Source of the DNA: Thermus caldilimi
GTDB lineage: Bacteria; Deinococcota; Deinococci; Deinococcales; Thermaceae
Direction of reading: 5' to 3'
Assembly (NCBI RefSeq): GCF_004684245.1
Contig: NZ_CP038452.1
Coordinates: 558,001-622,000 of the forward strand
Length of the DNA: 64,000 nucleotides
Below are positions 1,324 through 17,036 of this stretch, piece by piece. The notes beneath the pieces were generated by a model. The model searched no databases, was not told the origin of the DNA, and saw only the letters and a program-made list of their open reading frames with translations. The first letter of the stretch is position 1. The number at the start of each line of letters is the position of its first letter. The translations under genes were made by a program, and so were the position numbers.

Positions 1324-2264
1324 CGCCTGAGCCCGAAAAGGGCGTTAAACCGGGACAGGGTTTCGGAGTCGGCAAAGCGGGCCCGGATGCCCACCACCTG
1401 GGCCGGGCTTCCCTTGGGCTTGGGGGCGCCGGGCATCACCGGATAGTACCCCCTTTCCGCAAAGAGGCGCTGGGCCTCCGGGGAGAGGAGGAAGAGGAGG
1501 AAGCGGGTGGCCAGCTCCGGATTTTTGCTCCAGGAGGTGACGGCGATGGGGGTGGGCACCAGGATGGCCCCATCCCGGGGGTATACGGTGGCCAGGGGCG
1601 CTCCCTTGGCCACTTCCTGGCGCACCCCGAAGTCCGTGGTGATGGCGAGGCCGTACTCGCCGCGGGCCAGTTTCTGCTGCAGGACGGGGTTGGACTGCTC
1701 GATGCGCATGCCTCCCGCCTTCAGGGCCTCGAAAAAGCCGAAGCCCAGACGCTGGGAAAGGGTTCCAAGGGTGGCCAGGGCCGCCCCGGAGAAGTTGGGG
1801 TCGGGCATGGCCAGGAGGCCCGGGAAGGGGGGCTTTAGGAGATCCCTCCAGGAAGTGGGGGCTTCCCGCACCCGCTGGGTGTTCACGGCGATCACGTTGT
1901 AGAGGAGGCGCACCTCGTAGTAGAGGCCGCCCCCGTGGGCATACTGCACAGGATATCCCGGCACCGTGGGGGGAATGCGGCGCAAAAGACCCTTGCCCGC
2001 CAGCTCCCGGAGGAAGTCCTCGTTGGCGAACCAGAGCAGGTCCGGCTGGGGGTTTCCCGCCTCCAGCTCCGCCCGGAGCTTGGCCACCACCTCCCCGGTG
2101 CCCGAGCGGAACACCTGGACCTGCACCCCTGGGTTCTGGGCCCGGAAAGCCTCCACCAGGGCGTTCACGTCCGCCAGGATCTCGGAGGTGTAGAGGGTGA
2201 GGGTACCCCCCTGGGCCAGTCCCACGCTTAGAGCCATACCCGCCAGGATCAGGAGCCTCTTCAT
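1320..2264 (-). CDS. Extracellular solute-binding protein, family 1 (AfuA/FbpA or phosphonate-type)
   Basis: Secreted ligand-binding subunit, 314 aa. Residues 1-19 form a signal peptide (KR, then a hydrophobic core ending GLAQ), followed by TLTLYTSE, the usual first strand of ferric-iron and 2-aminoethylphosphonate binders. Internal motifs such as DLLWFANEDFL and YNVIAVN fit the type II periplasmic binding fold. It is followed with a 4-nt overlap by its permease. The gene has its own Pho-type promoter (2274-2306), which suggests an organophosphorus ligand; iron is the main alternative because both subfamilies look alike. Confidence 0.75.
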   Translation of the reverse strand: MKRLLILAGMALSVGLAQGGTLTLYTSEILADVNALVEAFRAQNPGVQVQVFRSGTGEVVAKLRAELEAGNPQPDLLWFANEDFLRELAGKGLLRRIPPTVPGYPVQYAHGGGLYYEVRLLYNVIAVNTQRVREAPTSWRDLLKPPFPGLLAMPDPNFSGAALATLGTLSQRLGFGFFEALKAGGMRIEQSNPVLQQKLARGEYGLAITTDFGVRQEVAKGAPLATVYPRDGAILVPTPIAVTSWSKNPELATRFLLFLLSPEAQRLFAERGYYPVMPGAPKPKGSPAQVVGIRARFADSETLSRFNALFGLRR

Positions 2265-2273
2265 GGCACCCTG

Positions 2274-2306
2274 ACCCTAAGGGGCCCAGGTCAGGAAAAG
2301 GTCAAG
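2274..2306 (-). promoter_or_regulatory. Pho box plus -10 for the binding-protein operon
   Basis: Minus strand reads CTTGACC-TTTT-CCTGACC, two 7-bp direct repeats 11 bp apart (2289-2306), then 9 bp, then TAGGGT (2274-2279), then 9 bp to the ATG. The repeats occupy the -35 region, as in PhoB-activated promoters. Five other promoters here have the same spacing. Confidence 0.75.
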
Positions 2307-2326
2307 GGAGGCCCAGTGGGCCTCCC
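2306..2326 (-). terminator. Hairpin terminator after the first ugp-like operon
   Basis: GGGAGGCC / GGCCTCCC stem with a 5-nt loop, 17 bp past the stop of the binding protein that ends at 2344. There is only a short T tract, so termination may be partial. Confidence 0.5.
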
Positions 2327-2343
2327 AAAGACCCACGCAGGGA

Positions 2344-3627
2344 TCACCTGCAGAAGGGCTTCAGGGCCTCGTCCACCCGGCGCTGGGCCTCGCGGGTGGC
2401 CTCCCGCACCTCCTTGCGGCCCAGGACCACCGCCTGCTCCGCCTCGGCGATGATGTCCTTCACCTGTTGCAGGTTATAGACGGGAAGCTCCGCCTTGGCG
2501 TAGGCCAGCTGCTCCCGGGCGGTGAGGGCCTGGGGCCACTGCCGCACGTAATCCCGCATGAGGGGCAGGTTCCAGCTGGACCTCCGGGCCGCCACATACC
2601 CCGAGTCAATGGACCAGCGGGCCTGGAGCTCGGGGCTGGTCATGAACTTGATGAAGCGCAGGGTGGCCTCCCGCTTGGCGAGGTCCGAGCCCTTGAAGAG
2701 GTAGAAGTTGGCCCCTCCGGTGGGCACCCCGTAGCGCACCAGCTTGGGCTGGAAGGCGGTGCCGAAGGCGAAGCGGGCGTTGGTGCGGATGAAGCCCAAG
2801 GACCCCGTGGAGTGGTAGATCATGGCCACCTTGCCGGCGGCGAAGTCCCCGGGGGTGGTACCCCAGGCGATGACCCCTTCCGGGCTCACCCCGTGCTTCC
2901 TCGCCAGGTCCGCCTTGAACTGCATGGCCTTCCGCACGGGCTCGGTGTCCACCAGGACCTTGCACCCCTTGCCGGCTGGGTCGTAGAGGAGGCCTCCCGC
3001 CTGGATGACCAACCCCTCCAGCAACCACGTGGAGCGGTCCTCCGTGGGGATGGCCACCCCGTAGCGGACCACCCGGCCCTGGGCGTCCCGCTTGGTGAGG
3101 CGCTTGGCGTACTCCACCAGCTCCTCCCAGGTGATGGGGGGCTTTTCCGGGTCCAGACCGGCCTCCCGGAAGGCCTCCTTGTTGTAGTAGAGAATCGGGG
3201 TGGAGCGCTGGAAGGGGAGGCTCCAGACCTTACCGTCCAGGGTGGAGTTCATCACGAAGGCGGGAAAGAAGTCCTGAACCGCCTTTTTCAGCTCGGGATC
3301 CCGGGCGATATAGGGGTCGAAGGACTCGATGGCGTCCATGGCCAGGAGGGTGTGGAGCTGCTGGGAAAGGAGGATGGCGGTGTCCGGGGGGTTCCCCGCC
3401 CGGATGGCCGCCACCACCTTGGCCTGGTTCTCCTCGTAGTTGCCCCCGAAGACAGTGTTCACCCGTATCTGGGGGTTCTGCTTCTCGAAGTCGCTGACGT
3501 AGCTTTCGATGAACCGGGCCAAGGGACCCGCCACACCCACCGGGTAATAGAAGGTGATGGTGGTCTGCTGGCCGAGACCCAGACCTAGGAGCGCCAACAA
3601 TCCGATGCCGATCCTCTTCATGTTCAT
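2344..3627 (-). CDS. Sugar/glycerol-phosphate ABC binding protein (UgpB-like)
   Basis: Secreted solute-binding protein of 427 aa, COG1653 type. A short signal peptide (residues 1-20, ending GLGQ) is followed by TITFYYPV and the typical FEKQNP motif. The central region has ILYYNKEAF and TWEELVEYAKRLT, conserved in UgpB/MalE-like proteins. It is last in an operon permease-permease-binding protein whose promoter carries a Pho box, so glycerol-3-phosphate or a glycerophosphodiester is the likely ligand. GGAGG precedes the ATG. A second, distinct system of the same kind lies at 8958-12008. Confidence 0.8.
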   Translation of the reverse strand: MNMKRIGIGLLALLGLGLGQQTTITFYYPVGVAGPLARFIESYVSDFEKQNPQIRVNTVFGGNYEENQAKVVAAIRAGNPPDTAILLSQQLHTLLAMDAIESFDPYIARDPELKKAVQDFFPAFVMNSTLDGKVWSLPFQRSTPILYYNKEAFREAGLDPEKPPITWEELVEYAKRLTKRDAQGRVVRYGVAIPTEDRSTWLLEGLVIQAGGLLYDPAGKGCKVLVDTEPVRKAMQFKADLARKHGVSPEGVIAWGTTPGDFAAGKVAMIYHSTGSLGFIRTNARFAFGTAFQPKLVRYGVPTGGANFYLFKGSDLAKREATLRFIKFMTSPELQARWSIDSGYVAARRSSWNLPLMRDYVRQWPQALTAREQLAYAKAELPVYNLQQVKDIIAEAEQAVVLGRKEVREATREAQRRVDEALKPFCR

Positions 3628-3641
3628 GCGACCTCACCTCC

Positions 3642-4499
3642 TTAGCCTTTCAACCCGCTTCGGGTGAAGGCCTCCACGAAACCCCTCTGGAAGAGGAGGA
3701 ATCCGAGGACCATGGGCAGGGCCACCAGAATGGCACCGGCGGCGATAAGGCCCCACTCCATACCGCTTTCCGCTGAGCGGGCGAAGCTGGCGAAGCCCAG
3801 GGAAAGCACCCGCTTTTCCGGGCTCTGGATCACCACCAGGGGCCAGAGGAACTCGTTCCAGTGGTAGACCAGGCTCACCAGGGAGAAGGCGGCCAGGTGG
3901 GGCCGGACCAGGGGCAGAAGGACCCTCCACAGGATCTGCCAGGAGGTGGCCCCGTCCACCTGGGCTGCCTCGATGAGCTCCCTGGGGATCTGCAGGAATC
4001 CCTGGCGGAGAAGGAAGGCTCCTGTGGCCGAGGCCACGTAGGGCAGGGCCAGGGCGGTAAGGGTATCGCTGAGCCCCAGCTTGTGGATGAGGATGTAGTT
4101 GAGGAGGATCAGGGCGGAGGCGGGCAGGAAAAGCTGGGCCAGGACTAGGTAGAAGGGGCCATTCCTTCCCCGGGCCTTCAGCTGGGCTAGGGCGAAGCCC
4201 GCCGTGGTGACCGTGACGAGCTGGACGAGGAGAAGCCCAAAGGTAAACAACACCGTGTTCCCGTAGAGCCGGGGAAAGTCCGCCGCCTGCCAGGCCAGGC
4301 GGAAGTTTTCCAGGGTAAGGGTGCCCAGCTGGCCCCGGTTGAGGTCGGCGGTGGGGGTGAAGGCGGCGATCAGGGTAAAGGTGGCGATGAGGAGGAAGGG
4401 CAAGGACACGATAAGGGCAGGCACCTCCCGGAGGAAGGAGGCGGCCTTGGCCAGCCGCTTCCTGGTCCTGGCCAGGGGCAGGGCTTGCCTACCCGTCAT
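3642..4499 (-). CDS. ABC importer permease, UgpE/MalG type
   Basis: Second permease of the first Ugp-like importer, 285 aa with about six membrane helices. The cytoplasmic loop EAAQVDGATSWQILWRVLLP (about residues 177-196) is the EAA motif that docks the ATPase. The start overlaps the upstream permease by 11 nt and the stop lies 14 nt before the binding-protein gene, so the three are co-transcribed. No ATPase gene is present; a shared MalK/UgpC-type ATPase elsewhere must energise it. Confidence 0.85.
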   Translation of the reverse strand: MTGRQALPLARTRKRLAKAASFLREVPALIVSLPFLLIATFTLIAAFTPTADLNRGQLGTLTLENFRLAWQAADFPRLYGNTVLFTFGLLLVQLVTVTTAGFALAQLKARGRNGPFYLVLAQLFLPASALILLNYILIHKLGLSDTLTALALPYVASATGAFLLRQGFLQIPRELIEAAQVDGATSWQILWRVLLPLVRPHLAAFSLVSLVYHWNEFLWPLVVIQSPEKRVLSLGFASFARSAESGMEWGLIAAGAILVALPMVLGFLLFQRGFVEAFTRSGLKG

Positions 4500-5292
4500 A
4501 GTGCACCCCCCTTTCCAGCCTGGGCAGGGCCAGAAGGGCCAGGGCGGTTAGGGCCGTGAGCAGGACCAGGGTCAAGGCCCCCGCCTGCGGGAAGTCGAAG
4601 TACTCGAAGCCCAGGGTGTAGACCCGGTAGAGGAGGTGGTCCGTGGCCCCCACCGGTCCCCCCTTGGTGAGGATGAAGATGTGGTCGACGTTGCGGAGGG
4701 CCCCCAGGGTGGCCATGATCCCCACGAAGAAGGTGGTGGGGGAGAGCAAGGGCAGGGTGATTCGGAAGAAGGTGGCCAGGCGGCCTGCCCCGTCCACCCG
4801 GGCCGCCTCGAGGACCTCCTTGGGCAGGGCCTGGAGGCCGGCCAGGTAGTAGAGCATGTACAGGCCGGCATCCTTCAGCACGCCCACCAGGACCACGGCG
4901 AGAAAGGCCCCCATGGGGTCCCCCAAGGGGTTTTGCAGGCCCAGCCAGCGGAGAAGGCCCTGGAGGGGGCCCAGGGGGTTCAGGAGGTAGAGGAAGACCG
5001 CGGCGAAGGCCACCGTGGGCAGGATCACCGGGTGGAAGATCAGGGCTCTGGCCAGAAGCCGGAGCCGGGAGGTCCCCTCCACGGCCACGGCCGCCAGGAG
5101 GCCCAGGCCCACGGATAGGGGCACGGCCAGCAGGGTGTAGAGGGCGGTAACCCGCAAGGCGTTGAGGTTTTCCCGTTGGAAAAGGGATCCTAAAGCGCTG
5201 ATCCCCTCCAGGGCCGCGACCCCAAAGGGCAGATAGGTGAAGGCCACCAGGAAGACCAGGGTGGGAAGGAGGAAGATCCCGACGCTCCGCAT
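4489..5292 (-). CDS. ABC importer permease, UgpA/MalF type
   Basis: First gene of the operon, 267 aa, six predicted helices. The EAA-type loop reads EAARVDGAGRLATFFRITLP (about residues 162-181). The ATG lies only 8 nt after the -10 box of the Pho-type promoter, so the mRNA is leaderless or nearly so. It pairs with the overlapping downstream permease. Confidence 0.85.
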   Translation of the reverse strand: MRSVGIFLLPTLVFLVAFTYLPFGVAALEGISALGSLFQRENLNALRVTALYTLLAVPLSVGLGLLAAVAVEGTSRLRLLARALIFHPVILPTVAFAAVFLYLLNPLGPLQGLLRWLGLQNPLGDPMGAFLAVVLVGVLKDAGLYMLYYLAGLQALPKEVLEAARVDGAGRLATFFRITLPLLSPTTFFVGIMATLGALRNVDHIFILTKGGPVGATDHLLYRVYTLGFEYFDFPQAGALTLVLLTALTALALLALPRLERGVHYDG

Positions 5293-5300
5293 CCAGGCTG

Positions 5301-5333
5301 AAGCTAACCGGGGCCAGTCAGGTAAAAGTCAAG
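5301..5333 (-). promoter_or_regulatory. Pho box plus -10 for the first ugp-like operon
   Basis: Minus strand CTTGACT-TTTA-CCTGACT (5316-5333), the closest match in the window to the classical PhoB direct repeat. It is followed by 9 bp and the -10 TAGCTT (5301-5306); the ATG comes 8 nt later. Confidence 0.8.
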
Positions 5334-5422
5334 GGCAAGGCTCGGGGGCAAGAATGGCAAGCCTCTTACCTTGGCCTAGCGGGTGAGTGTCTCCTGCCTG
5401 AGGAACCCGGTTGGCGAGAACA

Positions 5423-5456
5423 AGGGCGCCCTGGGCCCTTTGAGCCAGGGCGCCCT
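5423..5456 (-). terminator. Strong hairpin terminator after the phytase-like remnant
   Basis: Perfect 12-bp inverted repeat AGGGCGCCCTGG / CCAGGGCGCCCT with a 10-nt loop, followed on the minus strand by TTGTTCTC. It lies 11 bp past the stop of the remnant ending at 5468. Confidence 0.7.
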
Positions 5457-5467
5457 GTGGCCTGCGC

Positions 5468-5715
5468 CTAGCGCAGGGCTTGCGGGAGAAGGACCAGCCA
5501 GAGGCGGCTGGGTCCTTCTTTGCCGGTGATGGCGAAGTCGTTATCGTCGGCAATGGCCAGGGTGCGTCCGTCTTCCAACAGGGTCAGGCCTTCCAGCTTG
5601 TTCGTATCGAACTCGGGCAGCTTCCAGGTTTCCAGAACCAGGTTGCGCTGGGGAAGGCGGATCCCCAAGGCCCCGAAGTCCGTCCCCACCTTGTCCAGCT
5701 CCGGGCCAGGCGGGG
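5468..5715 (-). pseudogene. 3' remnant of an esterase-like/phytase-family gene
   Basis: About 80 codons that read like the C-terminus of the 'esterase-like activity of phytase' family: LEGLTLLEDGRTLAIADDND near the start and RLWLVLL near the end. These proteins are normally several hundred residues; the 5' part is missing and is replaced by the region in front of the divergent metal-binding-protein gene. The terminator is retained. A phosphate-ester hydrolase remnant fits the surrounding Pho island. The family call rests on this motif only. Confidence 0.55.
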
Positions 5716-5743
5716 GGGTGAGGTGCTGGGAGGGGATTCGTAG

Positions 5744-5771
5744 TTGCAAATGCAATATCGCTATCATTAAT
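5744..5771 (+). promoter_or_regulatory. AT-rich upstream element of the metal-binding-protein gene
   Basis: The sequence TTGCAAATGCAATATCGCTA and the following TCATTAAT stand out in GC-rich DNA. They contain an imperfect palindrome centred on ATAtCGcTAT and the near-repeat TTGCAAATGCAA. A Zur/Mur-type operator is possible; no known consensus is matched exactly. Confidence 0.35.
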
Positions 5772-5814
5772 CTGCCCCTCCCGGCCCAGGGAGGGGAGAG
5801 GCAAGGAGGTAAGG

Positions 5815-6654
5815 ATGAAGCGCTTTCTAACCCTGGCCCTCTTCATCGTGTTGGCGGCTTTGGCCGAGAAGCCGGTGTTCGTAGCCACCCTTAAGCCCTA
5901 TGGCCTCCTCCTGTCCCAGCTGGTGGGGGAAACAGGGGAGGTGGTGGTGCTGGTGCCCCCTTCCGCCAACCCCCATGTGTACGAGCCCACGCCTTCTCAG
6001 GTGCGGTTGGTGGCCCAAGCCAGGTTGGTGGTGGCCAACGGTGCTCACCCGGACGGCTGGGTGGTGGAGAAGCTGATCCGGCCCAACGCCTTGGCCACGC
6101 CGGTCCTTTGGGTGGCCGATACCGTGCAGGAGGAGCTCATTCCCACCCCCACCGGGCCCGATCCGCACGTATGGGTGGATCCCCTGCTGATGGCCAAGGC
6201 GGTGCCCGCCCTGGTGGCGGCTTTGGAAAGGGTTGATCCCGCCCACGGGGTCCTATACCGAACCCGCGGGCATTGGCTTCAGGCGGAACTGCTGAAGCTG
6301 GACCGGGAGGTGCGCGCTCTCCTTGGCGAGCGGACCAGGCCCGGAGTCTTGGCCTTAAGGAACCCGGTTCGTTACTTTGCCCGGCGGTACAGCATTCCCA
6401 TTCTTTACACCGTGGTCCCCAACCCCGAGGCCCCTGAGGCCAGCGCCAGGGCGGTGGCCGAGGCCCGGAGGATCGCACAGGAGAAGCAGATCCGCTACCT
6501 GCTGGCGCCCTTAGCCACCCGCACTCAAGCCCTACCCCTGGGCAGGAACCTTGGCCTCGAGGTGATCTTCCTGGACATCCTGGGGGAGGAGGCCTCCAGC
6601 TACCCGGGGTTGGTGCGCCAGATAGCCACCGGGTTTGCCCAGGCCCTGCGCTAG
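5815..6654 (+). CDS. ZnuA/TroA-family metal-binding lipoprotein-like ABC substrate protein
   Basis: Secreted binding protein of 279 aa (cluster A-I) for Zn2+ or Mn2+. There is a signal peptide to about residue 18, then PVFVATLKPYGLLLSQLVG. Metal ligand candidates are His54 in SANPHVYEPTP and the histidine in GPDPHVWVDPL (about 123); no long His-rich loop separates them, unlike E. coli ZnuA. It is the only plus-strand gene in the island and is monocistronic: a strong terminator follows and no permease or ATPase is adjacent. The AT-rich upstream stretch 5744-5771 may hold a metalloregulator site. Confidence 0.8.
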   Translation: MKRFLTLALFIVLAALAEKPVFVATLKPYGLLLSQLVGETGEVVVLVPPSANPHVYEPTPSQVRLVAQARLVVANGAHPDGWVVEKLIRPNALATPVLWVADTVQEELIPTPTGPDPHVWVDPLLMAKAVPALVAALERVDPAHGVLYRTRGHWLQAELLKLDREVRALLGERTRPGVLALRNPVRYFARRYSIPILYTVVPNPEAPEASARAVAEARRIAQEKQIRYLLAPLATRTQALPLGRNLGLEVIFLDILGEEASSYPGLVRQIATGFAQALR

Positions 6655-6692
6655 AGAGAGCACAAACCGAACGAACGGGCGAGTTAAGGCAA

Positions 6693-6722
6693 ATCCCCTA
6701 CCCCAGGGCCGGGGTAGGGGAT
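6693..6722. terminator. Bidirectional hairpin terminator
   Basis: Perfect 12-bp inverted repeat ATCCCCTACCCC / GGGGTAGGGGAT with a 6-nt loop. It lies between the plus-strand metal-binding-protein gene and the minus-strand secreted protein gene that converges on it. Confidence 0.75.
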
Positions 6723-6736
6723 GGCTTTAGGGGGCC

Positions 6737-7344
6737 TTAGAGGGAACGCTTCAGGAGGGTTTCCCAGGTGGGATTGGGGGTGAGTTTCACCAGCCCCTCG
6801 GCGTTCACCTGACGGCCTTCCGTCACGGCCACCCGCCATACCTGGACCACGTTGGCCTGGGGGTCAATAGGTGGCGGAAAAGAGGTTTTTCTTCTGCTGT
6901 AGATACCGGGCGATGGCCGAATCCTCCTGGGCGGCCTTGGCCACCATGCCCGGTCCCCACCAGGGCCTTCAGGGCGTTTTTGGTAAGGCCGTAGTTCACC
7001 TCGGGGGTCGCCTGTCCCCCGAAGATCAGGGCCACGGCCTCCTCCTGCGGCTTCAAGGGAGGCACTTCCTCGGGGGCGACGAAGGTGGTCACCTTGAGCT
7101 GGCGCTGGCCCTCGAGGTCCAGGTAGCTGGCCCCCATGGCTCCCACCAGGCCAGCACGGATGCTGGTGTTGTTGGTGAGGATGTGCAGGCTCTTAAGCCC
7201 CAGGTTCTGGGCCAGCACCTGGCCAAAGGCCTTTCCCGTGCAGCCCCGGAGCACCAGGTGCTCACCCAAACTCAGGCTCTGCGCCATACCTCCCCCTACA
7301 GCGGCCAGAAACAGGATGCCCGAAATCAAAAAGCGCTTGTTCAT
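6737..7344 (-). pseudogene. Secreted protein of unknown function, two frameshifts
   Basis: The ATG at 7344 gives a signal peptide (MNKRF, hydrophobic core, GGGMAQ). A soluble region follows in which one cysteine (RGCTGKAFG) and NYGLTKNALKALVG can be read. Around 6951 the frame must shift to continue as MVAKAAQEDSAIARYL, and at 6866-6867 it must shift again to reach LTPNPTWETLLKRSL and a stop at 6737. With both corrections a protein of about 200 aa results. I do not recognise the family; it is not a clear PstS. The terminator at 6693-6722 follows. Confidence 0.5.
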
Positions 7345-7385
7345 ACTGGCCCTCCCGTGGGGGCTTTTTTCATGCCTCATTTACC

Positions 7386-8141
7386 TTACCCAGGTGATGT
7401 ATGACCGAAGGTGAACATTGGCACACTTCCATCCTCCGCGCCTTCCAGGGCCAGCATCAGGTGGTCCTTAAGCCTTAAGGGTGGAAGCCCGTGCTTCTGC
7501 CGAAACCGCTCGAGGAAGAACCGGCGCTCATCCCGGCGGTTGCCGTGGCTTTGGTTGGCGCCGTGCACCCCGATGCTCACCCCCCTTCCCTTCAGGTATC
7601 GGAAGGGAACCCCCTTGCGATAGGCCCTGAGCCAGAGGTCCCAGTCCCAGTAGTCCCCCACCTCCGGGTCCAGGCCCCCGAGCTCCCTTACAAGCCGGAG
7701 GGGAAGGGCCGTGCCCGAGGCCAGGATGCGGTTATCCACCAGGATCCAGTCCCCAGGCTCGCCGGGGCGGAAGGGTATCTCCCACGAGCCCAGGTTCAGC
7801 ACCCCCTCCCCGTAGACCAGGGCCTCCTCCCTGGGCAGAATGCGCCATACCCGGTACAGGTAAGCGGGGTCCAGGAGAAGGTCGTCGTCGTCCAGGAAGA
7901 GAACCACCTCTCCCCGGGCCTGGGCCAGGGCCTGCATACGGGCCTCCACCTGGCCCCGACCCGGGTTAGGAAGGGCCCGGAGCCGCGGATCTGCCAGGCC
8001 AGCCACCACTTCCATCCCCTCGCCCTCCCCGTCGTCCACCACCACCGCCTCAAACCGGGTAAAGGTCTGCCGGAGAAGGGAGGCCAGGGCTTGGCGCAGG
8101 GCGTCCGGCCGGCTCCGGGTGGGGATGAGGACGCTAATCAT
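7386..8141 (-). CDS. Family 2 glycosyltransferase
   Basis: 251-aa cytoplasmic GT-A enzyme that would transfer a sugar from a nucleotide-sugar. It starts [19 protein letters not shown], the usual first strand and helix of GT2. The metal-binding DxD is in FLDDDDLL (about residues 96-103) and a later [13 protein letters not shown] fits the acceptor region. The ATG overlaps the surE stop by 8 nt, so it is translationally coupled to surE and falls under the same Pho-type promoter. A role in phosphate-sparing glycolipid or glycan synthesis is an inference from that context only. Confidence 0.75.
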
Positions 8142-8868
8142 GGGCCAGGGCCGGTTGGAGGCGGGCCTCGTCGGTGAGGTCCAGCCTGAGGGGGGTGGCG
8201 GCGATAAACCCCTGCTCCACCGCCCAGCGGTCCGTGCCCTCCTCCGCTTCCTTAAGGGGTTTGGCGGCGAACCAGTAAAGGGGTCTTCCCATGGGATCTT
8301 CCCCTTCCACCACCACCCCCTCATAGGCCCGCACGGATTGCCGGGTCCAGAGGAACCCCTTGGGCCGGTGAGGCAGGTTGATGTTGACCAAAAAGGGCTT
8401 TTCCAGCCGGAGAAGGTTCTCCAGCACCCGTTCCACCCAGGGCCGCAAGGCGGCGAAGTCCGGTCCGCTTCCGTTCATGGGGGTGCTGAAGGCGGCCGCG
8501 GAGATCCCGAAGAGGCGGCCCTGCTTGGCCGCGGCCACGGTGCCCGAGTGCCAGATCTCGTGGCCCAGGTTGCTCCCCAGGTTGATGCCGGAAAGGACCA
8601 GATCCACAGGCCCGAAGAGGTGGAGCCCCAGGGCCACGCAGTCGGCGGGGGTGCCCCGCACCCGGTAGGAGGGGAAGTGGGGAGCGGGCAGGGGGGAGGG
8701 ATGGGGGAAGGCCCGCACGGGGTGGGCGATGGTGATGGCGTGGCCCACCCCGCTCTGCTCCACGTCAGGGGCCACCACGAAGACCTCGCCAAAGGGGCTT
8801 GCGGCCTCGGCCAGCGCCCAAAGCCCTGGGCTGAAGACGCCGTCGTCGTTGGTCACCAGGATCCGCAT
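8134..8868 (-). CDS. surE: 5'/3'-nucleotidase SurE
   Basis: Metal-dependent nucleoside monophosphate phosphatase, 244 aa. The N-terminus [15 protein letters not shown] contains the metal-binding Asp8-Asp9, and [15 protein letters not shown] contains the conserved Ser-Gly phosphate loop. [12 protein letters not shown] supplies the conserved Asn of the active site. Its own Pho-type promoter lies directly upstream with 6 nt between -10 and ATG. Release of phosphate from nucleotides fits the island. Confidence 0.95.
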
Positions 8869-8874
8869 GCCCCT

Positions 8875-8907
8875 ACCCTAAGGGGCCAATGTCAGCTCAA
8901 GATCAGC
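8875..8907 (-). promoter_or_regulatory. Pho box plus -10 for surE
   Basis: Minus strand GCTGATC-TTGA-GCTGACA (8890-8907), then 9 bp, then TAGGGT (8875-8880), with the ATG 6 nt further on. The repeats are less perfect than the other five but the spacing is identical. Confidence 0.65.
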
Positions 8908-8915
8908 GGCAAAAA

Positions 8916-8938
8916 CCGCTGGGGGACACCCCCAGCGG
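8916..8938 (-). terminator. Rho-independent terminator of the second ugp-like operon
   Basis: CCGCTGGGGG / CCCCCAGCGG stem with a 3-nt loop, followed on the minus strand by five T. It lies 19 bp past the binding-protein stop and just in front of the surE Pho box. Confidence 0.85.
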
Positions 8939-8957
8939 GAAGGAGGAGCCTGGTGGG

Positions 8958-10280
8958 TCAGGGTTGGGCCACGCTCCGGTTGTAGCGCTCCAGGGCCTGG
9001 TCTGCCCGGGCCTTGGCCTCCCTCAGGGCCTCGAGGGCAGGCTTCCCCTTCAGGGTTTCTTCCCAGGCGGTCTGCACGTACTGGCGTATTTCGGGGAAGG
9101 CCCCCATCAGGCAACCGGCGCTGGAGGGGTTAACCTTGCTGGTGGCTAGCTGCTGGATGGCGGTGGTGTAGTTGGGCTGCTTCACGTGGGCCTGGCGTAC
9201 CTGGGGAAGCTCGGTCACGCCCCGCACTATGGGGAAGTAACCGGTGGCCAGGTGCCAGCGGGCCTGGGTTTCCGGCTCCAGGAGGAAGCGCACGAACTCC
9301 CAGGCCGCCTGGACCTGTTCCTCGGGGAAGCCCTTCAGCACGTAGAGGGCAGCGCCCCCGATGGCTACCCCATTCCGCTCCCGGAGGAAGGGGTAGAAGG
9401 CAGTGCGCAAGGGAAAGCGGTTCCCCACCTGCCGCAGCACCCCCGTGAGGCTGGCCGTGGAGTAGGCGGCGATGGCCGCCTGGCCCTGGGCGAAGAGGCT
9501 TTGCGAGTCGGCCCAGTTGCGCCCGGTGTTGGCGGCCACCCCCTCCCGCACCAAACGGGCGTACATGTCCAGGAAGGCCGCGGCGGCCGGGTTGCCAAAG
9601 GTGACCGCGGTGGCCCTGGCCTTGCGGCCGTTCTCGTTGTTGCAGAAGTATTCCCCGGAGTTATAGGAGATCTGCTCCACGAACCAGGAATCGATGGGAA
9701 TGGAAAGCCCGTAGCGTACGGTACGGCCCTGGGCGTCCTTCTTGGTGAGCTTGCGGGCGGCTTCCTCCAGGTCCTTAAGGCTCCAGGTCGGCTTGAAGGG
9801 GATCCCCGCCTCCTGGAAGGCGGCCATGTTGAGGTAGAGGATGGGGTTCGAGGAGTTAAAGGGAAGCCCGTAGAGCTTCCCCTCCACCGTGTAGTAGTTG
9901 CGGGGCTGGGGGAGGAAGCGACCCAGGTCAAACCCGCTCTTCCGGGCCAGGTCCTCGAGGGGCACCACCGCCCCGGAGTCTGCCATGATCCGGGCCCCGA
10001 TGTCGTAGACCTGGATCACGTGGGGGTAACCCCGGCCCGCGCGCAAGGCGGCGAGAAGCTTGTTGATGCCGTCATCGTAGCTGCCCACGTACTGGCTTTT
10101 CACCTGAATCCGGTCCTGGCTTTTGTTGAAGTCCTGCACCAGCTTTTCCGTGGCTTCCCCCAGAACCCCACCCATGGAGTGCCAGAACTCCAGGGTGACC
10201 CTTTGGGCCTGAGCGCCGCCCAAAAGGAGCAGGGTGCTGAGGATGGCCTGTGCCCAAACCCGTCTCGTCCACATGCGCAT
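8958..10280 (-). CDS. Second UgpB-like ABC substrate-binding protein
   Basis: 440-aa secreted binding protein. The signal peptide covers about residues 1-25 (ending GGAQAQ), then VTLEFWHSMGG, the classic start of UgpB. PILYLNMAAFQEAGI and SLKDLEEAARKLTKKDAQG are shared with the first system (2344-3627), but overall the two are clearly diverged, so they probably bind different phosphate esters. It is last in the operon 12771-8958, 11 nt after the second permease, and ends at a strong terminator. Confidence 0.85.
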   Translation of the reverse strand: MRMWTRRVWAQAILSTLLLLGGAQAQRVTLEFWHSMGGVLGEATEKLVQDFNKSQDRIQVKSQYVGSYDDGINKLLAALRAGRGYPHVIQVYDIGARIMADSGAVVPLEDLARKSGFDLGRFLPQPRNYYTVEGKLYGLPFNSSNPILYLNMAAFQEAGIPFKPTWSLKDLEEAARKLTKKDAQGRTVRYGLSIPIDSWFVEQISYNSGEYFCNNENGRKARATAVTFGNPAAAAFLDMYARLVREGVAANTGRNWADSQSLFAQGQAAIAAYSTASLTGVLRQVGNRFPLRTAFYPFLRERNGVAIGGAALYVLKGFPEEQVQAAWEFVRFLLEPETQARWHLATGYFPIVRGVTELPQVRQAHVKQPNYTTAIQQLATSKVNPSSAGCLMGAFPEIRQYVQTAWEETLKGKPALEALREAKARADQALERYNRSVAQP

Positions 10281-10291
10281 ACCTATACCTC

Positions 10292-11107
10292 CTATCCCTT
10301 CAGCCCGCCCATGGCGATGCCCCGGACAAAGGCCCGCTGGGCGAGCAGGAAGGCCAAAAGGCTGGGGAGGAGCACCAGGATGGCCGCAGCGGCCACCACG
10401 TTCCAGCGGGCTACTTCCTCGTTGAGGATGAAGTTCACGGCGATCTGGGCCGTTTGCATCTCCCGGCTTTTGGTCACCACCAGGGGCCAGAGGTACATGT
10501 TCCAGGCCCCGATGAAGGTGAGGGCCGCCAGGGCCCCCAGGGCGGGGGCCGAAAGGGGCAGGGCCACGTGGCGGAGCATCTGCCAGTGGTTGGCCCCGTC
10601 GATCCGGGCGGCATCGAAGTAGTCCTCAGGGATGGTGCGCAGGAACTGCCTGAGGAGAAAAACCCCCAGGGGGCTTGCCAGGAAGGGAACCGTGAGGGCC
10701 AGATAGGAGTCCAGCCAGCCCAGGCGGTCCACCAGGAGGTAAAGGGGCAGGAAGGTGACCTCCCCAGGCACCAGAAGGAGGGCCACCGCCAACCCGAAGA
10801 GGGCCTCCCTTCCAAGGAAGCGGAGCCGGGCGAGGGCGTAGGCGGCCAGGAAGCTGGTGGTGAGTACGCCCAGGGTGATGAGGCTGGACACCAGGAGGCT
10901 ATTCAATAGGAACCGCCCCAGGGGGAACTTGGTGAGGGCCTCCTGGTAGGCCTCGAGGCTGGGCCGCGGGGGGAGGAGGCCCGGGGCGTAGAGGTCCCCC
11001 TCCGGGCGGAGGCTTGCGGAGAGGAGGGTGAGGAGGGGGAGGAGAAGGAGAAGGGCATACCCCCCGGCCAGGAGGTAGGTGGGCCAGAGCCTTCGCCGCC
11101 TACCCAT
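10292..11107 (-). CDS. ABC importer permease, UgpE type (second system)
   Basis: 271 aa, about six helices. The start MGRRRRLWPTYLLAGG overlaps the upstream permease stop by 8 nt. The EAA-like loop reads DAARIDGANHWQMLRHVALP (about residues 178-197). The sequence upstream of this ATG in the same frame is out-of-frame translation of the neighbouring permease and was not used. As in the first system, no ATPase gene accompanies it. Confidence 0.85.
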   Translation of the reverse strand: MGRRRRLWPTYLLAGGYALLLLLPLLTLLSASLRPEGDLYAPGLLPPRPSLEAYQEALTKFPLGRFLLNSLLVSSLITLGVLTTSFLAAYALARLRFLGREALFGLAVALLLVPGEVTFLPLYLLVDRLGWLDSYLALTVPFLASPLGVFLLRQFLRTIPEDYFDAARIDGANHWQMLRHVALPLSAPALGALAALTFIGAWNMYLWPLVVTKSREMQTAQIAVNFILNEEVARWNVVAAAAILVLLPSLLAFLLAQRAFVRGIAMGGLKG

Positions 11108-12008
11108 AGTGCACCCTCCGACCGAGAAGCCAAAACTGCAAGGCCGCCAGGAGCAGGAGCACCACGAAAAGCAACAAGGCCTCGGCGGCGGCCAGGGGCA
11201 CCCGGAAGTTGAAGAAGGCATCCTGGTACACCCGGTAGATCCAGACCATGGAGCTTTCCGCCGGCCCCCCGCGGGTGAGGAGGTGGATCTGCCCAAAGGC
11301 GGTGAGGCTCTTCAACACCACCAGGAGGCCCACCAGGAAGAGGGTGGGGGAGAGGAGGGGCAGGGTGATCCTCCAGAAGCGGGTCCAGGGGCCGGCCCCG
11401 TCCACCTCCACCGCCTCCAGGATCTCCGCAGGGATGTTCTGCAGGCCTGCGGTGAGGAGGACCGCGGTGAACCCCACCCCGGCCCAGGCGGTGATCACCG
11501 CCAGGGTGGGCAGGGCTAGCTCCGGGCTGGTGAGCCAGGGCTGGGGCGGCAGGCCCAAGGAGGCCAGGAGGCGGTTGGCAAGGCCCCCCACGGGATGCAG
11601 GAACCAACCCCAGGCCACCGCCGCCACCGCGGTGGGCACCGCCGTGGTGAGGAAGAAGAGGGTGCGGAAGAGGGCCACCCCCGGGTAGGGCCGGTAGACC
11701 AAGAGGGCCGCCAGGAGCCCCAGAAGGAGCTCCAGGGGCGCGGTGATCAGGGCGAACTTCAGGGTGAGCCAGGCGCTTTTCCAGAACTCCGGGCGGCTTA
11801 CGGCCTCCTGGTAGTTGGCAAGCCCGGTCCAGACCCGTCCCCGGCCGAAGAGATCCTCCTGGTGCAGGGAAAGCCAAAGGGCCTCGAGGAGGGGCAGGAC
11901 CAGGAAGAGGAGGAAAAGGGCGTAGGCGGGTAGCAGGAAGATCAAAGCCTCCCCCTGGCCCCTCAGGTGTCTTTGGAGGCGCTGGGCCCGGCTGAGGGTG
12001 GCGTACAT
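11100..12008 (-). CDS. ABC importer permease, UgpA type (second system)
   Basis: 302 aa, six helices after a basic N-terminal stretch. The docking loop EAVEVDGAGPWTRFWRITLP (about residues 202-221) is typical. A Pho box and -10 lie inside the 3' end of the upstream TIM-barrel gene, so the transporter can be transcribed independently of that gene. Confidence 0.85.
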   Translation of the reverse strand: MYATLSRAQRLQRHLRGQGEALIFLLPAYALFLLFLVLPLLEALWLSLHQEDLFGRGRVWTGLANYQEAVSRPEFWKSAWLTLKFALITAPLELLLGLLAALLVYRPYPGVALFRTLFFLTTAVPTAVAAVAWGWFLHPVGGLANRLLASLGLPPQPWLTSPELALPTLAVITAWAGVGFTAVLLTAGLQNIPAEILEAVEVDGAGPWTRFWRITLPLLSPTLFLVGLLVVLKSLTAFGQIHLLTRGGPAESSMVWIYRVYQDAFFNFRVPLAAAEALLLFVVLLLLAALQFWLLGRRVHYG

Positions 12009-12018
12009 GTCCGGGATA

Positions 12019-12051
12019 AGGCTAGGCCCCTCCGGTCAGGGCTCGGTCAGG
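12019..12051 (-). promoter_or_regulatory. Internal Pho box plus -10 for the second ugp-like transporter
   Basis: Minus strand CCTGACC-GAGC-CCTGACC (12034-12051), a perfect 7-bp repeat, then 9 bp, then TAGCCT (12019-12024). It overlaps the last codons of the TIM-barrel gene, so it also encodes protein. Confidence 0.7.
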
Positions 12052-12771
12052 GAGGCTTTCCCGCAGGCTTCTCAGGAAGGCGATGGAAGGGGCCGGGTCA
12101 ACCCGCACCTCCAGGACCAAGGTGCGGTCCAGGTAGGGACCAAGCCAGGTCCGGTGGCCGAGGACCCCGGTTCCCAGGTTCCAGTGCCGGTCGTAGAGGC
12201 CGTCTGTGTCGTTCAGGTGGAGGTGGTCGGGCTCCAAGGCCAGCCAGGGCCCTGGTTCCGGCACCCGGCTGAAAACCCGGGCATGGGCGGCGTCGAAGCA
12301 AAATCCCACCTCGGGGTAGGCCTCCAGGATGGGGGCCAGGGCCCTGGGCTCCGGCTCGTGGGTGTTCTCCAGGACCAGCTCCACCCCCAAGGTCCCGGCC
12401 CGCCGCACCACCGGCTTCAGGGCCTGGATGAGCCGGTCCGCCCGGTCCAGGGCCTCCTCCAGGGTGCGGCCGTGGGGGATGCCCGAGTGGAAGACCGCCC
12501 GGTCCGCCCCGAGCTCCGCCGCCCGGTCCAAGCCCAGGAGAAGCCGCCTGAGGGTGAGGTTGCGCACCTCCGGGTCCGGGGAGACCAGGTCCAGGTTCCA
12601 GAAGGGGAGGTGAACGGAGAGAGTTCCCTCGTAGCCGGTGGCCAGTTTGGCGAAGAGGGCGTCCTCCTCCAGGAGGGCGGGCTCCAGGTAGACCTCGAGG
12701 CCCAGCCAGGGATCCTCAGGCGCCGAAAATCTTAGAGCTTCCTCTAGGCCCATGGCGATGCGCAGGTCCAT
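12022..12771 (-). CDS. Sugar-phosphate isomerase/epimerase-like TIM-barrel protein
   Basis: 249 aa, xylose-isomerase-like (AP endonuclease 2) barrel. Probable divalent-metal ligands are the Glu in VLENTHE (about 129), Asp and His in CFDAAHA (about 153-156), His in DHLHLND (about 178) and Glu in LEVRV (about 220). It lacks the HRG/E motif of UgpQ glycerophosphodiesterases, so it is not that enzyme. As first gene of a Pho-controlled operon with a Ugp-like importer it probably acts on the imported ligand. The start is leaderless (-10 TACGGT, 6 nt, ATG). Confidence 0.7.
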   Translation of the reverse strand: MDLRIAMGLEEALRFSAPEDPWLGLEVYLEPALLEEDALFAKLATGYEGTLSVHLPFWNLDLVSPDPEVRNLTLRRLLLGLDRAAELGADRAVFHSGIPHGRTLEEALDRADRLIQALKPVVRRAGTLGVELVLENTHEPEPRALAPILEAYPEVGFCFDAAHARVFSRVPEPGPWLALEPDHLHLNDTDGLYDRHWNLGTGVLGHRTWLGPYLDRTLVLEVRVDPAPSIAFLRSLRESLPDRALTGGA

Positions 12772-12777
12772 GGGTTC

Positions 12778-12810
12778 ACCGTAAGCCCCTTGGGTCAGAG
12801 CGCGGTCAGG
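12778..12810 (-). promoter_or_regulatory. Pho box plus -10 for the TIM-barrel/second ugp operon
   Basis: Minus strand CCTGACC-GCGC-TCTGACC (12793-12810), 9 bp, TACGGT (12778-12783), then 6 nt to the ATG. Confidence 0.75.
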
Positions 12811-12876
12811 GTCCTTTCCATAAGGGTCGCTGGCGGCCCATCAAGGAGTTTGCCAGCGAGAAGGGCATGCTCCTCC

Positions 12877-14076
12877 CTAGAGGTACTCGAGGGGGCTTTC
12901 CCGCATGGCCTGAAACGCAGGGGGCAGGGCCGCCAGGATGCCCAGGGGCAGCAGGGCGAAGGCCCGGGCCAGGAGGTCCAGGCTAAGTTTCGGAGGGGGG
13001 AGGTAGAAGCCAAGCCGCTCCCCCAAGGCCCCGGAGCCGGCGGCGGCGAGCCCCCAGCCCAAGAGGACGCCGAGAAGGATCCCGAGCCCCACCTCGAGGG
13101 TCGTCTCCCACAGCAACACCGAAAACACCAGCCCCCGCGGTGCTCCCAGGGCCCGCAGGAGGGCGTTGTGGCGGCGGCGCTCGAGGCCCTGGGCATAGAT
13201 TCCTTGCCAGATGAGGAGGGCGGCCAGAAAGAGCACCAGGAGGGACAAGGCCCCGTAGGCGGACTGCCCCTGGAGCATCGCCTCCCTCAGCTGGGCAAAG
13301 ACCTGGCCGGGCAGGACCGCCTGGGCTTCCGGGCTCCGGTTAACCTCCTGGGCCACCTGGTACACATCGGAGAGGCGCCGGCCTGTGAAGAGCACGGCGG
13401 TAACTTCCCGCTTCCCCTCACCTTCCCCGTGGACCTCCCAGTAGGCCTCTATGGGCACCAGGATGGCCCGGTCCCAGGGGCCTCCCGTGGGCTCGAGGAT
13501 CCCCACCACCCGGTACTTTTCCTCCTGGTGGTGGGCAAGGGCGCTGGCAGCCTCCGCTTGGCTGGCGAAAAACCCGTGGTCGCTCAGAAACTCGGCGCCC
13601 ACCTTCAGGCCCGTTTCCCGTGCGGCCCTAGCCCCCAGCACCGCCTCGTACGTGTGGAGGAAGGGCCGCCCCTGCTTCAGGCGGAAATACGGCGGATCCG
13701 TGGGCGTAAGCCTGAGCTCAAAGACCTGGGTACTGGTCCCTATGAGCGGAAAGCCCCGATAGCTGTCCCCAAAGGCCAGGGGGACCACCCGCCTTGCTCT
13801 GGGGTCACGGGCCAGTCGCTCGTAGGTGGCGTAGGGCAGGTTGGCGATGGGGGGTTGCAGGAGATACAGGCTCGAAAGCACGGCCTGGGTAGGGCTACCT
13901 TTGGCGGCGATGAGGAGGTCGAAGACCTGGGCGGCATTGGCCGCCCCTCTTTCCAGGGACTGGAGCACCAGGGGAACCACCAAGGCCATGGCCGTGGCCA
14001 GGGCTATCCCCAGAAGGGTGAGGAAAGTGGAAAAGGCCCTCACCCTTAGGTTTCTGACGACGATCCACAGGGTCAT
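12877..14076 (-). CDS. FtsX/MacB-type ABC transporter permease
   Basis: 399-aa inner-membrane permease: one N-terminal helix (FSTFLTLLGIALATAMALVV), a large extracytoplasmic domain, and three C-terminal helices. This is the LolC/MacB topology that moves lipoproteins or other substrates out of the membrane using mechanical force. The start at 14076 has GGAGG 6 nt upstream and follows the ATPase stop by 20 nt; the longer reading from 14136 overlaps the ATPase and is less likely. It is the last gene of the phoA cluster. Confidence 0.75.
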   Translation of the reverse strand: MTLWIVVRNLRVRAFSTFLTLLGIALATAMALVVPLVLQSLERGAANAAQVFDLLIAAKGSPTQAVLSSLYLLQPPIANLPYATYERLARDPRARRVVPLAFGDSYRGFPLIGTSTQVFELRLTPTDPPYFRLKQGRPFLHTYEAVLGARAARETGLKVGAEFLSDHGFFASQAEAASALAHHQEEKYRVVGILEPTGGPWDRAILVPIEAYWEVHGEGEGKREVTAVLFTGRRLSDVYQVAQEVNRSPEAQAVLPGQVFAQLREAMLQGQSAYGALSLLVLFLAALLIWQGIYAQGLERRRHNALLRALGAPRGLVFSVLLWETTLEVGLGILLGVLLGWGLAAAGSGALGERLGFYLPPPKLSLDLLARAFALLPLGILAALPPAFQAMRESPLEYL

Positions 14077-14096
14077 GGACGCCTCCAAGCGGGAGA

Positions 14097-14735
14097 CTAA
14101 AGCTCCACCTGGCGGGGGAAATGGCCCACCACCCACGGGTCGTGGGTGGCCAGCACCAGGGTGGCCTTAAGGCCGATGGCCGTGTGGATCAAGAGCTCCA
14201 GGGCCACCTTTGCCCTGGAACGATCCAGGTGGGCCGTGGGCTCATCGGCCAGGAGGAGGCTTGGCCGGTGGGCCACCGCCCGGGCCAGGGCCACCCGTTG
14301 CCGCTCCCCAGTGGAAAGGCGTTTGGGAGTGTGCCCCAGACGGTGTTCCAGACCCAGGGTCTTAAGGACCTCCTTGGCACGGTTTTCCGCCACCCTCCCC
14401 CTTATGCCCGCAAGGCCCAACCCCAGGAGCACGTTCTCCAGCACGGTATAGCCTTCGGCCAGGTAAAAGTCCTGGAAGAGATAGCCCACCTTTCCTCTCC
14501 GATAGGCATCCCGCTGGGATTCGTTCAAGGCAGCCAGGTTCATCCCGGCAACCCAGACCTCTCCCTCGCTAGGCACCAACAGGCCAGCGAGGAGGTGTAA
14601 AAGGGTGGTTTTCCCGCTCCCGGAGGGACCCAGCAGGACCACCTGTTCCCCGGCGGCCAGCTCCAGGTCCGGCAACGTCACGGCCACCTCCTCCCCGTAG
14701 CGCACCACCACCCCCTTGAGGCACACCTCCCCCAT
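14097..14735 (-). CDS. ABC transporter ATP-binding protein, LolD/MacB type
   Basis: 212 aa nucleotide-binding domain. Walker A is GPSGSGKTT (about residues 35-43), the signature is RLSTGERQRVALARA, Walker B is SLLLADEPT, and the H-loop is ATHDP. It partners the FtsX-like permease just downstream and overlaps the upstream secreted-protein gene by 1 nt. Confidence 0.85.
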   Translation of the reverse strand: MGEVCLKGVVVRYGEEVAVTLPDLELAAGEQVVLLGPSGSGKTTLLHLLAGLLVPSEGEVWVAGMNLAALNESQRDAYRRGKVGYLFQDFYLAEGYTVLENVLLGLGLAGIRGRVAENRAKEVLKTLGLEHRLGHTPKRLSTGERQRVALARAVAHRPSLLLADEPTAHLDRSRAKVALELLIHTAIGLKATLVLATHDPWVVGHFPRQVEL

Positions 14736-15202
14736 CAGGGCACCTCCTCCACCCGGTCCGCGTAGATCCGCACCAGGCTCACGAACCCGGTCTGGGAATC
14801 TTCCTTAACCCCGATATCCAGGCGCCCCGTTACCCGGATGCGGCGGGTGGTGGGCTTGGCCTCCTGACCTTTAGGCATGATCACCAGCACGATATCCGGG
14901 GGCCAGTCGGCGGCCGTGGAGCAGAAGGGGCAGGTGGCCAGGGGGACCTTGGTCAGAACAAAGAAGTCCAGCTTGGGTTTGAGGGGTGGGGCCATCCAGC
15001 CCGTCATGCTCACCCGCTGACCGTTAAGGGCTTTCAACCGGGGTGAAAACTCGATTCCCCTTACGGTCACCCGGCTGTAAAGGTCGGCAAAGTCCAGGGT
15101 GACCTGGGCGAGCCCTCCCCCGCCCAACCAAAACCCCAGCAAGAGGACCCAGATCGCGGGATTCCAGGGCAAGGGGTTTGAGGTCGGGCGGGGAAGGCTC
15201 AT
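14735..15202 (-). CDS. Secreted CPFC-motif protein linked to the LolCD/MacB-type exporter
   Basis: 155 aa. An N-terminal hydrophobic segment (about residues 13-32) is a signal peptide or anchor, followed by about 120 extracytoplasmic residues. LNGQRVSMTGWMAPPLKP and LATCPFCSTAADWPPD are the striking motifs; the CxxC pair may bind metal or be redox-active. The protein resembles small proteins of the DUF3299 kind, but I am not sure. It lies 27 nt after phoA and overlaps the ATPase gene, so it belongs to the same unit. Confidence 0.6.
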   Translation of the reverse strand: MSLPRPTSNPLPWNPAIWVLLLGFWLGGGGLAQVTLDFADLYSRVTVRGIEFSPRLKALNGQRVSMTGWMAPPLKPKLDFFVLTKVPLATCPFCSTAADWPPDIVLVIMPKGQEAKPTTRRIRVTGRLDIGVKEDSQTGFVSLVRIYADRVEEVP

Positions 15203-15229
15203 GGGGTATGACCCTCTTTAGAAAACGGG

Positions 15230-16984
15230 CTAGCGGCCCAGGTAGGGGTTGAGACCCAGGGCCTGGGCCATGCGGAAGAAGATCTCCGTTTGGTCAATCA
15301 GGCCGTTGAAGAGCTGGGATCCGGCGCCGAAGGCAAAGAGGGGGAGTGGATCGGCGGTGTGCACCCCCTGGCTGGAGTTGACGGGGAGGTTGCCGGTGCG
15401 AAGGTAGGCGCCGGGTTCCTTGCACACCTCCGGGTTGGCCACGTAGCCGCCCTTGCCGTCGGAAATGGTGGGGTCCTTGTACACTTCCCGGCCCCGGAAG
15501 GTTTCGCAGTAGTCAGGGGTGGCGGCAAAGCCCACCGCAATACCCCAGCTGGTTTCGGGCAGGGGGAACCCGTTGGCGTCCTTCCGATCACCGTAGGTGG
15601 GGAACTTCGCGTTTTGATAGACCCCGACACCCTCGCGACCCTGCTTGGAGTAGTCGTAGCCGCCGAAGACGGAGATGGAGTGCCCGTGGTCGGCGGTCAC
15701 GATGACCAGGGTATCGGGGTGCTCGGCAGCGTACTGCTTGGCCCAGGCCACTGCCCGGTCCAGCTCTAGCACATCCCACAGGGCCCGTTGCCAGTCCAGG
15801 GGGTGTTCGTACTTGTCCACCATTCCCGCTTCCACCAGCAGAAAGAACCCGTTGGGGTTTTGGGAGAGGGTTTCCACGGCCTTCTGGGTCATTTCCCACA
15901 GGTAGGGCATGTCGGTGAAGCTACCCAGCATCTCAGGCCGCTTCCAAACCGCCCGGTCCAGATAGCTGGGGAAGTTGTCCAGGTGGAAGAGGCCAAAGAG
16001 CTTCCCCTGGGGTTTGGCGGCCAGGAGCTCGGTGCGGGTGCTGACGAAGGTATAGCCCATCTTTTGGGCCTCGCTGATCCAGTCGGTATCGTCCTTGCGG
16101 CGGGAGCCCGGTGCGCTTTTGGGGATGAAGTCGCGGGAACCCCCGAAGAGCATGACGTCCAGGGGAATGCCGAATCCCCCGCGCCCGAAGTACTGGTCGG
16201 CGATGGCCTGGTAATCGCTACGCCGGCGGGTGTGGGCGTTGACCGAGGCCGGGGTGGCGTCCGTACCGAAGGTGGTGGTGACCACGCCGAGGCTGGCCCC
16301 GCGCACCCGCTTCATCATCTCGGCCAGGGTTTCCACCCGGGGGTGGGCCAGGGTGTCCTTGAGGTTGGCCGGGCCGGCGTTGAGGGCGTTAACCGGCAGC
16401 TTAAGCCCCGACATGATGGAGGAAGCTGAGTTTGCGGAATCGACAATGAAGCTGTCGAGGCTGCTGGTCACCACCGTGGCCATGCCGCCATAGCCGGTTT
16501 CGATCTCGAGGAATCCCTTAGGTATCCCGTTTTCCGGGTTGTACCCTTTGGCGATGATGCGGGCGGCGTTAAGGGTGTTCCAGCCCATCCCGTCGCCGAT
16601 AAAGAGGATGACGTTCTTGGCTGGACGGAGAGGACGGGGGTACTGCCTTGCCTCCCAACGCACGATCCTTTGGGTTTCGCCGGCTTCGTCCTTGACCTTC
16701 ACCTCGAGGGTGTGGCTGCCTGGACGCAAGGAGAGGCCACGGAGGGTCCACTCGGCCGTTCCCGTTGCCTGGGAGGTCTGTTCCAAGCCCGTTAGCGGTA
16801 CCCCATCCAGGGTGATGTGGTAATCCTTTAGCGCACCGTTTAACTCCGAGGCCTCCACCCGGAGGTCGAAGCGTTGGCCAGCCAGCAGGGCCGCCCCGTC
16901 GTAGGGAAAAACGGCCAGCTTAGCTGCCCACGCCGAACCCAAGGCTAAGGCCAGTCCCAATAGAACCCGGAAGGTCTTCCTCAT
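15230..16984 (-). CDS. phoA: Alkaline phosphatase, PhoA family, with N-terminal extension
   Basis: Secreted phosphomonoesterase of about 584 aa. After the signal peptide (to about residue 20) comes a roughly 90-aa Ig-like region, then the catalytic domain. [12 protein letters not shown] holds the first metal-binding Asp, [14 protein letters not shown] holds the nucleophilic Ser (SAS), and [10 protein letters not shown] holds the late Asp-His pair. The ATG at 16984 was chosen because GGGAGG precedes it; a GTG at 17005 lies inside the promoter region. Expression from the Pho-type promoter at 17004-17036 is expected. Confidence 0.92.
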
Positions 16985-17003
16985 AGCCTTACCTCCCGAT
17001 CGC

Positions 17004-17036
17004 ACCCTAAGGGAGACGGGTCATGGGAATGTCATC
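17004..17036 (-). promoter_or_regulatory. Pho box plus -10 for phoA
   Basis: Minus strand GATGACA-TTCC-CATGACC (17019-17036), 9 bp, then TAGGGT (17004-17009). Unlike the other five, it has a leader with a Shine-Dalgarno sequence before the ATG. Confidence 0.75.

Follow-up and report, generated by a model that had tools for sequence, protein, structure and literature searches.

Putative Pho boxes in the window and the genes behind them

Six sites on the minus strand of the window (the whole 64,000-nucleotide stretch analysed here, C1:558001-622000 of a 2,447,659-bp genome) are very probably Pho boxes of the Thermus PhoB, which would switch on the genes behind them at low phosphate. A search with the relaxed pattern TGAY-N7-TGAC-N10-TANNNT confirmed the six sites that had been proposed, all on the minus strand, with half-sites 11 bp apart and a TAnnnT -10 element, and returned these six exact matches and no others in the window:

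2274..2304, minus strand: putative Pho box and -10, TGACC N6 TGACC N9 TAGGGT; -10 to start codon 9 nt
5301..5331, minus strand: putative Pho box and -10, TGACT N6 TGACT N9 TAGCTT; -10 to start codon 8 nt
8875..8905, minus strand: putative Pho box and -10, TGATC N6 TGACA N9 TAGGGT; -10 to start codon 6 nt
12019..12049, minus strand: putative Pho box and -10, TGACC N6 TGACC N9 TAGCCT; -10 to start codon 10 nt
12778..12808, minus strand: putative Pho box and -10, TGACC N6 TGACC N9 TACGGT; -10 to start codon 6 nt
17004..17034, minus strand: putative Pho box and -10, TGACA N6 TGACC N9 TAGGGT; -10 to ATG 16 nt with GGAGG between (Shine-Dalgarno-led)

The first half-site reads TGACC three times and TGACT, TGATC and TGACA once each; the second reads TGACC four times and TGACT and TGACA once each; and the -10 is TAGGGT in three boxes and TAGCTT, TAGCCT and TACGGT in the others. 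Identical spacing had been argued to be beyond chance, and our controls bear this out: 100 dinucleotide shuffles of the window gave a mean of 0.00 matches, and 200 order-3 Markov windows never yielded more than 1 match for any one spacing combination. In a grid with the first gap varied over 3-13 and the second over 5-15, the observed combination accounted for 6 matches and all others together for 1.

The genes behind these boxes are:

1320..2264, minus strand: ABC solute-binding protein; nearest NCBIfam model the 2-aminoethylphosphonate-type phnS2, below its cut-off
2344..5292, minus strand: first Ugp-like transporter (permeases 4489-5292 and 3642-4499, binding protein 2344-3627)
8134..8868, minus strand: surE, 5'/3'-nucleotidase (TIGR00087 above cut-off)
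8958..12008, minus strand: second Ugp-like transporter (permease 11100-12008, second permease in frame 10292-11296, binding protein 8958-10280)
12022..12771, minus strand: xylose-isomerase-like TIM-barrel protein (PF01261)
15230..16987, minus strand: phoA-type alkaline phosphatase (PF00245; start taken as the ATG at 16987)

The best NCBIfam models for the first Ugp-like transporter are UgpA and UgpB, both below cut-off; because the curated UgpB, UgpA and PhnS models all score below their cut-offs, the substrates of the transporters are uncertain. The box at 12019..12049, ahead of the permease gene starting at 12008, overlaps the 3' end of the TIM-barrel gene. Xylose-isomerase-like TIM-barrel genes adjoin two separate sugar/Ugp-type transporter operons (window 12022-12771 and L069:4117-4929). 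Elsewhere in the window, a ZnuA-type zinc-binding protein gene lies at 5815-6654 on the plus strand, with an AT-rich, palindrome-like stretch upstream (5740-5775) that we take to resemble a Zur site. At 6823-7380 on the minus strand, the frame, which seems disrupted around 6870-6960, could be a broken gene, with a secreted-protein start still readable.

Further boxes in the same genome

Across the whole genome, the relaxed pattern has 7 exact matches, all within about 18 kb (C1:556920-575034); the seventh (C1:556920-556950) lies 1.1 kb left of the window, upstream of a third Ugp-like binding-protein gene. When one-mismatch matches are included, the count rises to 17, vs 3 for the pattern read backwards. 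The double repeat without a -10 (HTGACM-N5-HTGACM) occurs 12 times, vs 3 in the reversed control, and nine of these 12 lie upstream of genes, namely phoB, four in the window, an ArsC-type gene, pstS, a small ORF (<=67 aa) and ushA. The other three (C1:250110, 1197500 and 1374168) were set aside as background-like, as they lack a promoter setting and equal in number the reversed-control count (3). Two of the boxed loci outside the window are:

C1:2131-1418: phoB, followed by a HisKA/HATPase kinase gene and a PhoU-domain gene spanning the origin of the record
C1:1668691: arsenate-reductase-type gene (arsC, LMWPc family) with a box

The phoB-phoR-phoU operon of this genome has a box of its own, pstS (with pstC downstream) and ushA are also boxed, and the expectation that a genome scan would hit pst, phoBR and similar genes was borne out at phoB-phoR-phoU and pstS. 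The original prediction of a compact regulon was not, however, since phoB, pstS, ushA and arsC lie scattered, far from the window cluster. At two loci with PhoU-domain transporter-sized frames (L030, L031), a box was looked for and none was found.

Conservation across Thermus and beyond

The strict pattern TGAYM-N6-TGACM-N9-TANNNT matched 76 times, with matches in every one of the 27 Thermus genomes; the reversed pattern gave 0. For phoB and pstS, conservation was examined starting from the genes rather than the sites, so these tests are not circular. An 11-bp double repeat lies upstream of phoB in 27/27 Thermus genomes, always at one fixed distance, with 10 bp to a TANACT -10 and 6 nt from there to the start, and none of the three paralogous Thermus regulators examined has a double repeat. 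A close pstS (E <= 1e-60, a threshold that leaves room for more distant PstS) was found in 9/27 Thermus genomes and not in the other 18; all nine carry the double repeat upstream of it, with a weaker -10, mostly NAnnGT-like rather than TAnnnT. In the sister genus, whose PhoB is 68-71% identical, the double repeat is present at 16/16 phoB orthologs and 0/3 paralogs, and in another family 7/7 strict-match loci have pstS (6) or phoB (1) downstream.

We assigned 110 of 120 deduplicated Thermus sites (all strict N9 loci plus a selection of the other matches listed) to gene families, an assignment that is partly circular because some reference proteins came from the matches themselves. These 110 sites comprise surE (13), arsC (11), phoB (11), ushA (11), a second PhoA type (10), the second-ugpA type (8), the type of the binding protein at 1320-2264 (8), ppk (6), the TIM barrel (6) and a phytase-like enzyme (5), the remainder consisting chiefly of binding proteins (Ugp-type and others) and of single cases. 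Ten of the 120 sites are without a family, five of them preceding the small ORF. The strict pattern also finds sites without a clear phosphate gene, more so outside Thermus, where the 31 sites in the 30 loci examined yielded 10 assignments by tblastn and 2 by eye (pstS; phytase/phosphatase-like).

Two kinds of small gene also stand behind such boxes. An unannotated protein of 63-67 aa with a Pho-type box and an apparently leaderless start occurs in the source genome (L073:4220-4420, minus strand) and at L034, L050, L061, L094 and L109; its resemblance to MinE is sub-threshold only. A hydrophobic peptide of about 28-40 aa, probably a single-helix membrane peptide, lies downstream of strict boxes in two further genera of this family (L169, L170, L174, L175, L176, L180 and L182).

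Box geometry and start codons

Geometry was counted over 148 rows among the matches listed of a loosened genus search, after two secondary readings of counted sites had been removed. The 11-bp repeat step is rigid (123/148 rows among the matches listed), and of those 123 rows, 60 have a gap of 9 before the -10, 53 a gap of 10, 6 a gap of 11 and 4 a gap of 8. The spacing of exactly 9 bp originally described therefore holds for the six window sites and fails as a rule for the genus, where 9 or 10 is common and the range is 8-11. Across the 120-site set, the gap is 9 for the surE, binding-protein, ugpA, TIM and PhoA types, 10 for phoB and 10/11 ushA sites, 11 for ppk and 8 to 10 for arsC. The -10 is 9-10 bp from one half-site and 20-21 bp from the other, and a canonical -35 is absent. 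The genus half-site is TGAC(C/A), and the columns that the pattern leaves unfixed repeat the motif: of 70 sites, 53 have C at position -2 and 52 have it in the equivalent column ahead of the second half-site, and pyrimidines adjoin most TGACs. A gap-4 class (17/148 rows among the matches listed) was rejected as a Pho box, being a conserved TTGACA-N17-TAAAGT promoter; this promoter is itself conserved across the genus (e.g., G000:C1:1407517).

Five of the six window promoters look leaderless, with the start codon 6-10 nt past the -10; the exception is phoA (16 nt, with GGAGG). At all 47 genus sites assigned to the surE, phoB, ppk, arsC and TIM families, the start lies 6-9 nt past the -10. A TANNNT about 12 bp ahead of the start is reported to mark leaderless genes, a class common in Deinococcus-Thermus (PMC3160421), and we find 12 bp from its first T to the start codon at surE, the TIM gene and phoB, in agreement with that class. 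Unlike those promoters as described there, the Thermus -10 is tied to an activator box at a fixed distance.

Like the E. coli Pho boxes at phoA and pstS, the boxes consist of two half-sites on the coding strand with an 11-bp step and take the place of the -35, and the two systems share PhoB, PhoR, pst, phoA and ugp-type targets. They differ in the half-site, which is TGTCA in E. coli vs TGAC(C/A) in Thermus, and in the leaderless appearance of most Thermus starts, unlike the E. coli Pho promoters. The E. coli phoA and pstS sequences read TGTCA-N6-TGTCA-N11-TATA; given this gap of 11, as against mostly 9-10, the -10 lies 1-2 bp nearer in most Thermus promoters. Since the Pho box consensus is reported to vary between species (PMC4415409), the mismatch to TGTCA bars a box of the E. 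coli type, not a Pho regulon as a kind. The box reported for Streptomyces PhoP, GTTCACC-N4-GTTCACC (PMC4832192, PMC4415409), is likewise a direct repeat of 7-mers with a 4-nt spacer, ending in ACC, from a high-GC genome, although its core is TCACC vs TGACC in Thermus.

The regulator and a possible shift in specificity

The candidate PhoB is an OmpR-family regulator with a phospho-acceptor aspartate, encoded in an operon with a phoR-type kinase and phoU. Its best model is TIGR02154 (PhoB), at 202.5 bits vs a curated cut-off of 296.2 and so below it; that cut-off is a threshold of a naming model, not a biological requirement for a Pho regulon. Its best sequence match in the PDB is the mycobacterial RegX3. 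The base contacts reported for E. coli PhoB are T194, V197, R201 and R219 (PMC3264566). On alignment to E. coli PhoB, D53, T194, R203, T217 and R219 are kept in 26/26 Thermus and 16/16 sister-genus PhoBs, whereas V197 and R201 are both replaced by Gln in all 26 and all 16; in three paralogs, V197 is retained and position 201 is G or A. The change of two of four base contacts alongside the change of half-site fits a shifted specificity, a link that we infer from the sequences. The recognition helix is unlike those of seven other domains in the same genome and of the paralogs; in two genera, this helix and the box are conserved together.

Proposed mechanism and alternative explanations

At low phosphate, PhoR would phosphorylate PhoB, which has the aspartate that aligns with E. 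coli D53. Two PhoB molecules would then bind head-to-tail at the pair of TGAC(C/A) half-sites, which are separated by roughly one helical turn, as OmpR/PhoB-type regulators are reported to form head-to-tail dimers on 7+4 bp direct repeats (PMC4832192). Bound PhoB would recruit RNA polymerase to promoters with a TAnnnT -10, which lack a normal -35 because the box occupies its position. Five of the six promoters would initiate transcription on the start codon itself or only a few bases away from it, yielding leaderless mRNAs, and the gene products would serve the import and dephosphorylation of organic phosphates. The box, its geometry, its conservation, the genes behind it and its presence at phoB itself are observed directly in the genomes; PhoB binding, phosphate dependence and leaderless initiation are what we infer from them.

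The repeats could instead be tandem sites of another OmpR-family regulator that controls phosphate genes, a reading we regard as improbable: the genome has ten Trans_reg_C matches and tandem direct repeats are reported as common to the family (PMC4832192), yet the box stands at phoB itself in 27/27 genomes and at 0/3 paralogs examined, the phoB-phoR-phoU operon is intact, and the phoB recognition helix is both distinct from the others and conserved with the box, as described above. Still less credible is that these are parts of ordinary sigma-70 promoters with a shifted -35 and no response to a regulator. TTGAC-like half-sites do resemble a -35, and the true TTGACA-N17-TAAAGT promoter matches our loosened search (the 17 rows noted above), but the half-sites here lie about 9-10 and 20-21 bp from the -10 rather than 17, the 11-bp repeat is kept in 123 of the 148 rows among the matches listed, and the genes behind the boxes are functionally coherent. 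We rejected the plain sigma-70 reading on the spacing to the -10, the 11-bp repeat and the spacing-grid controls. A chance alignment of TGAC words, finally, is refuted by the controls and can be practically dismissed, with 0 matches in 100 shuffles and 76 vs 0 reversed-control matches in 27 genomes. The geometry originally read as that of PhoB-type activation, with 11-bp repeats in place of the -35, is supported by the repeat step, the -10 distance and the boxes at phoB and pstS.

Implications

The Thermus boxes appear to represent a lineage version of the known Pho system, common to its relatives and apparently undescribed; the open-access literature searched, outside which most subscription papers fall, yielded no account of a Pho box or Pho regulon in Thermus. 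The putative target set is the familiar low-phosphate programme of organic-phosphate importers, nucleotidases, alkaline phosphatases, a phytase-like enzyme and polyphosphate kinase. Its arsC member fits because arsenate is reported to enter via phosphate transporters (PMC5658604). Its passages on the subject place arsenic genes under SmtB, with no mention of Pho control. To a specialist, the potentially new points are the link to arsC, the Gln/Gln helix and the leaderless module.

The boxes provide a ready phosphate-regulon consensus for a deep, biotechnologically used lineage and name members that include arsC and small unannotated genes. The two changed PhoB residues and the changed half-site form a natural pairing, and because box, -10 and start codon lie so close together, the promoters offer a simple test of activators on leaderless genes. 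More tentatively, we suggest a Thermus-lineage Pho system in which a Gln/Gln helix may read TGAC(C/A), and box, -10 and start codon may form a rigid module of about 50 bp for leaderless mRNAs; arsC would be a core target, so that arsenate defence would rise with phosphate uptake, and in the many species without a close PstS the phosphate signal would reach PhoR by another route.
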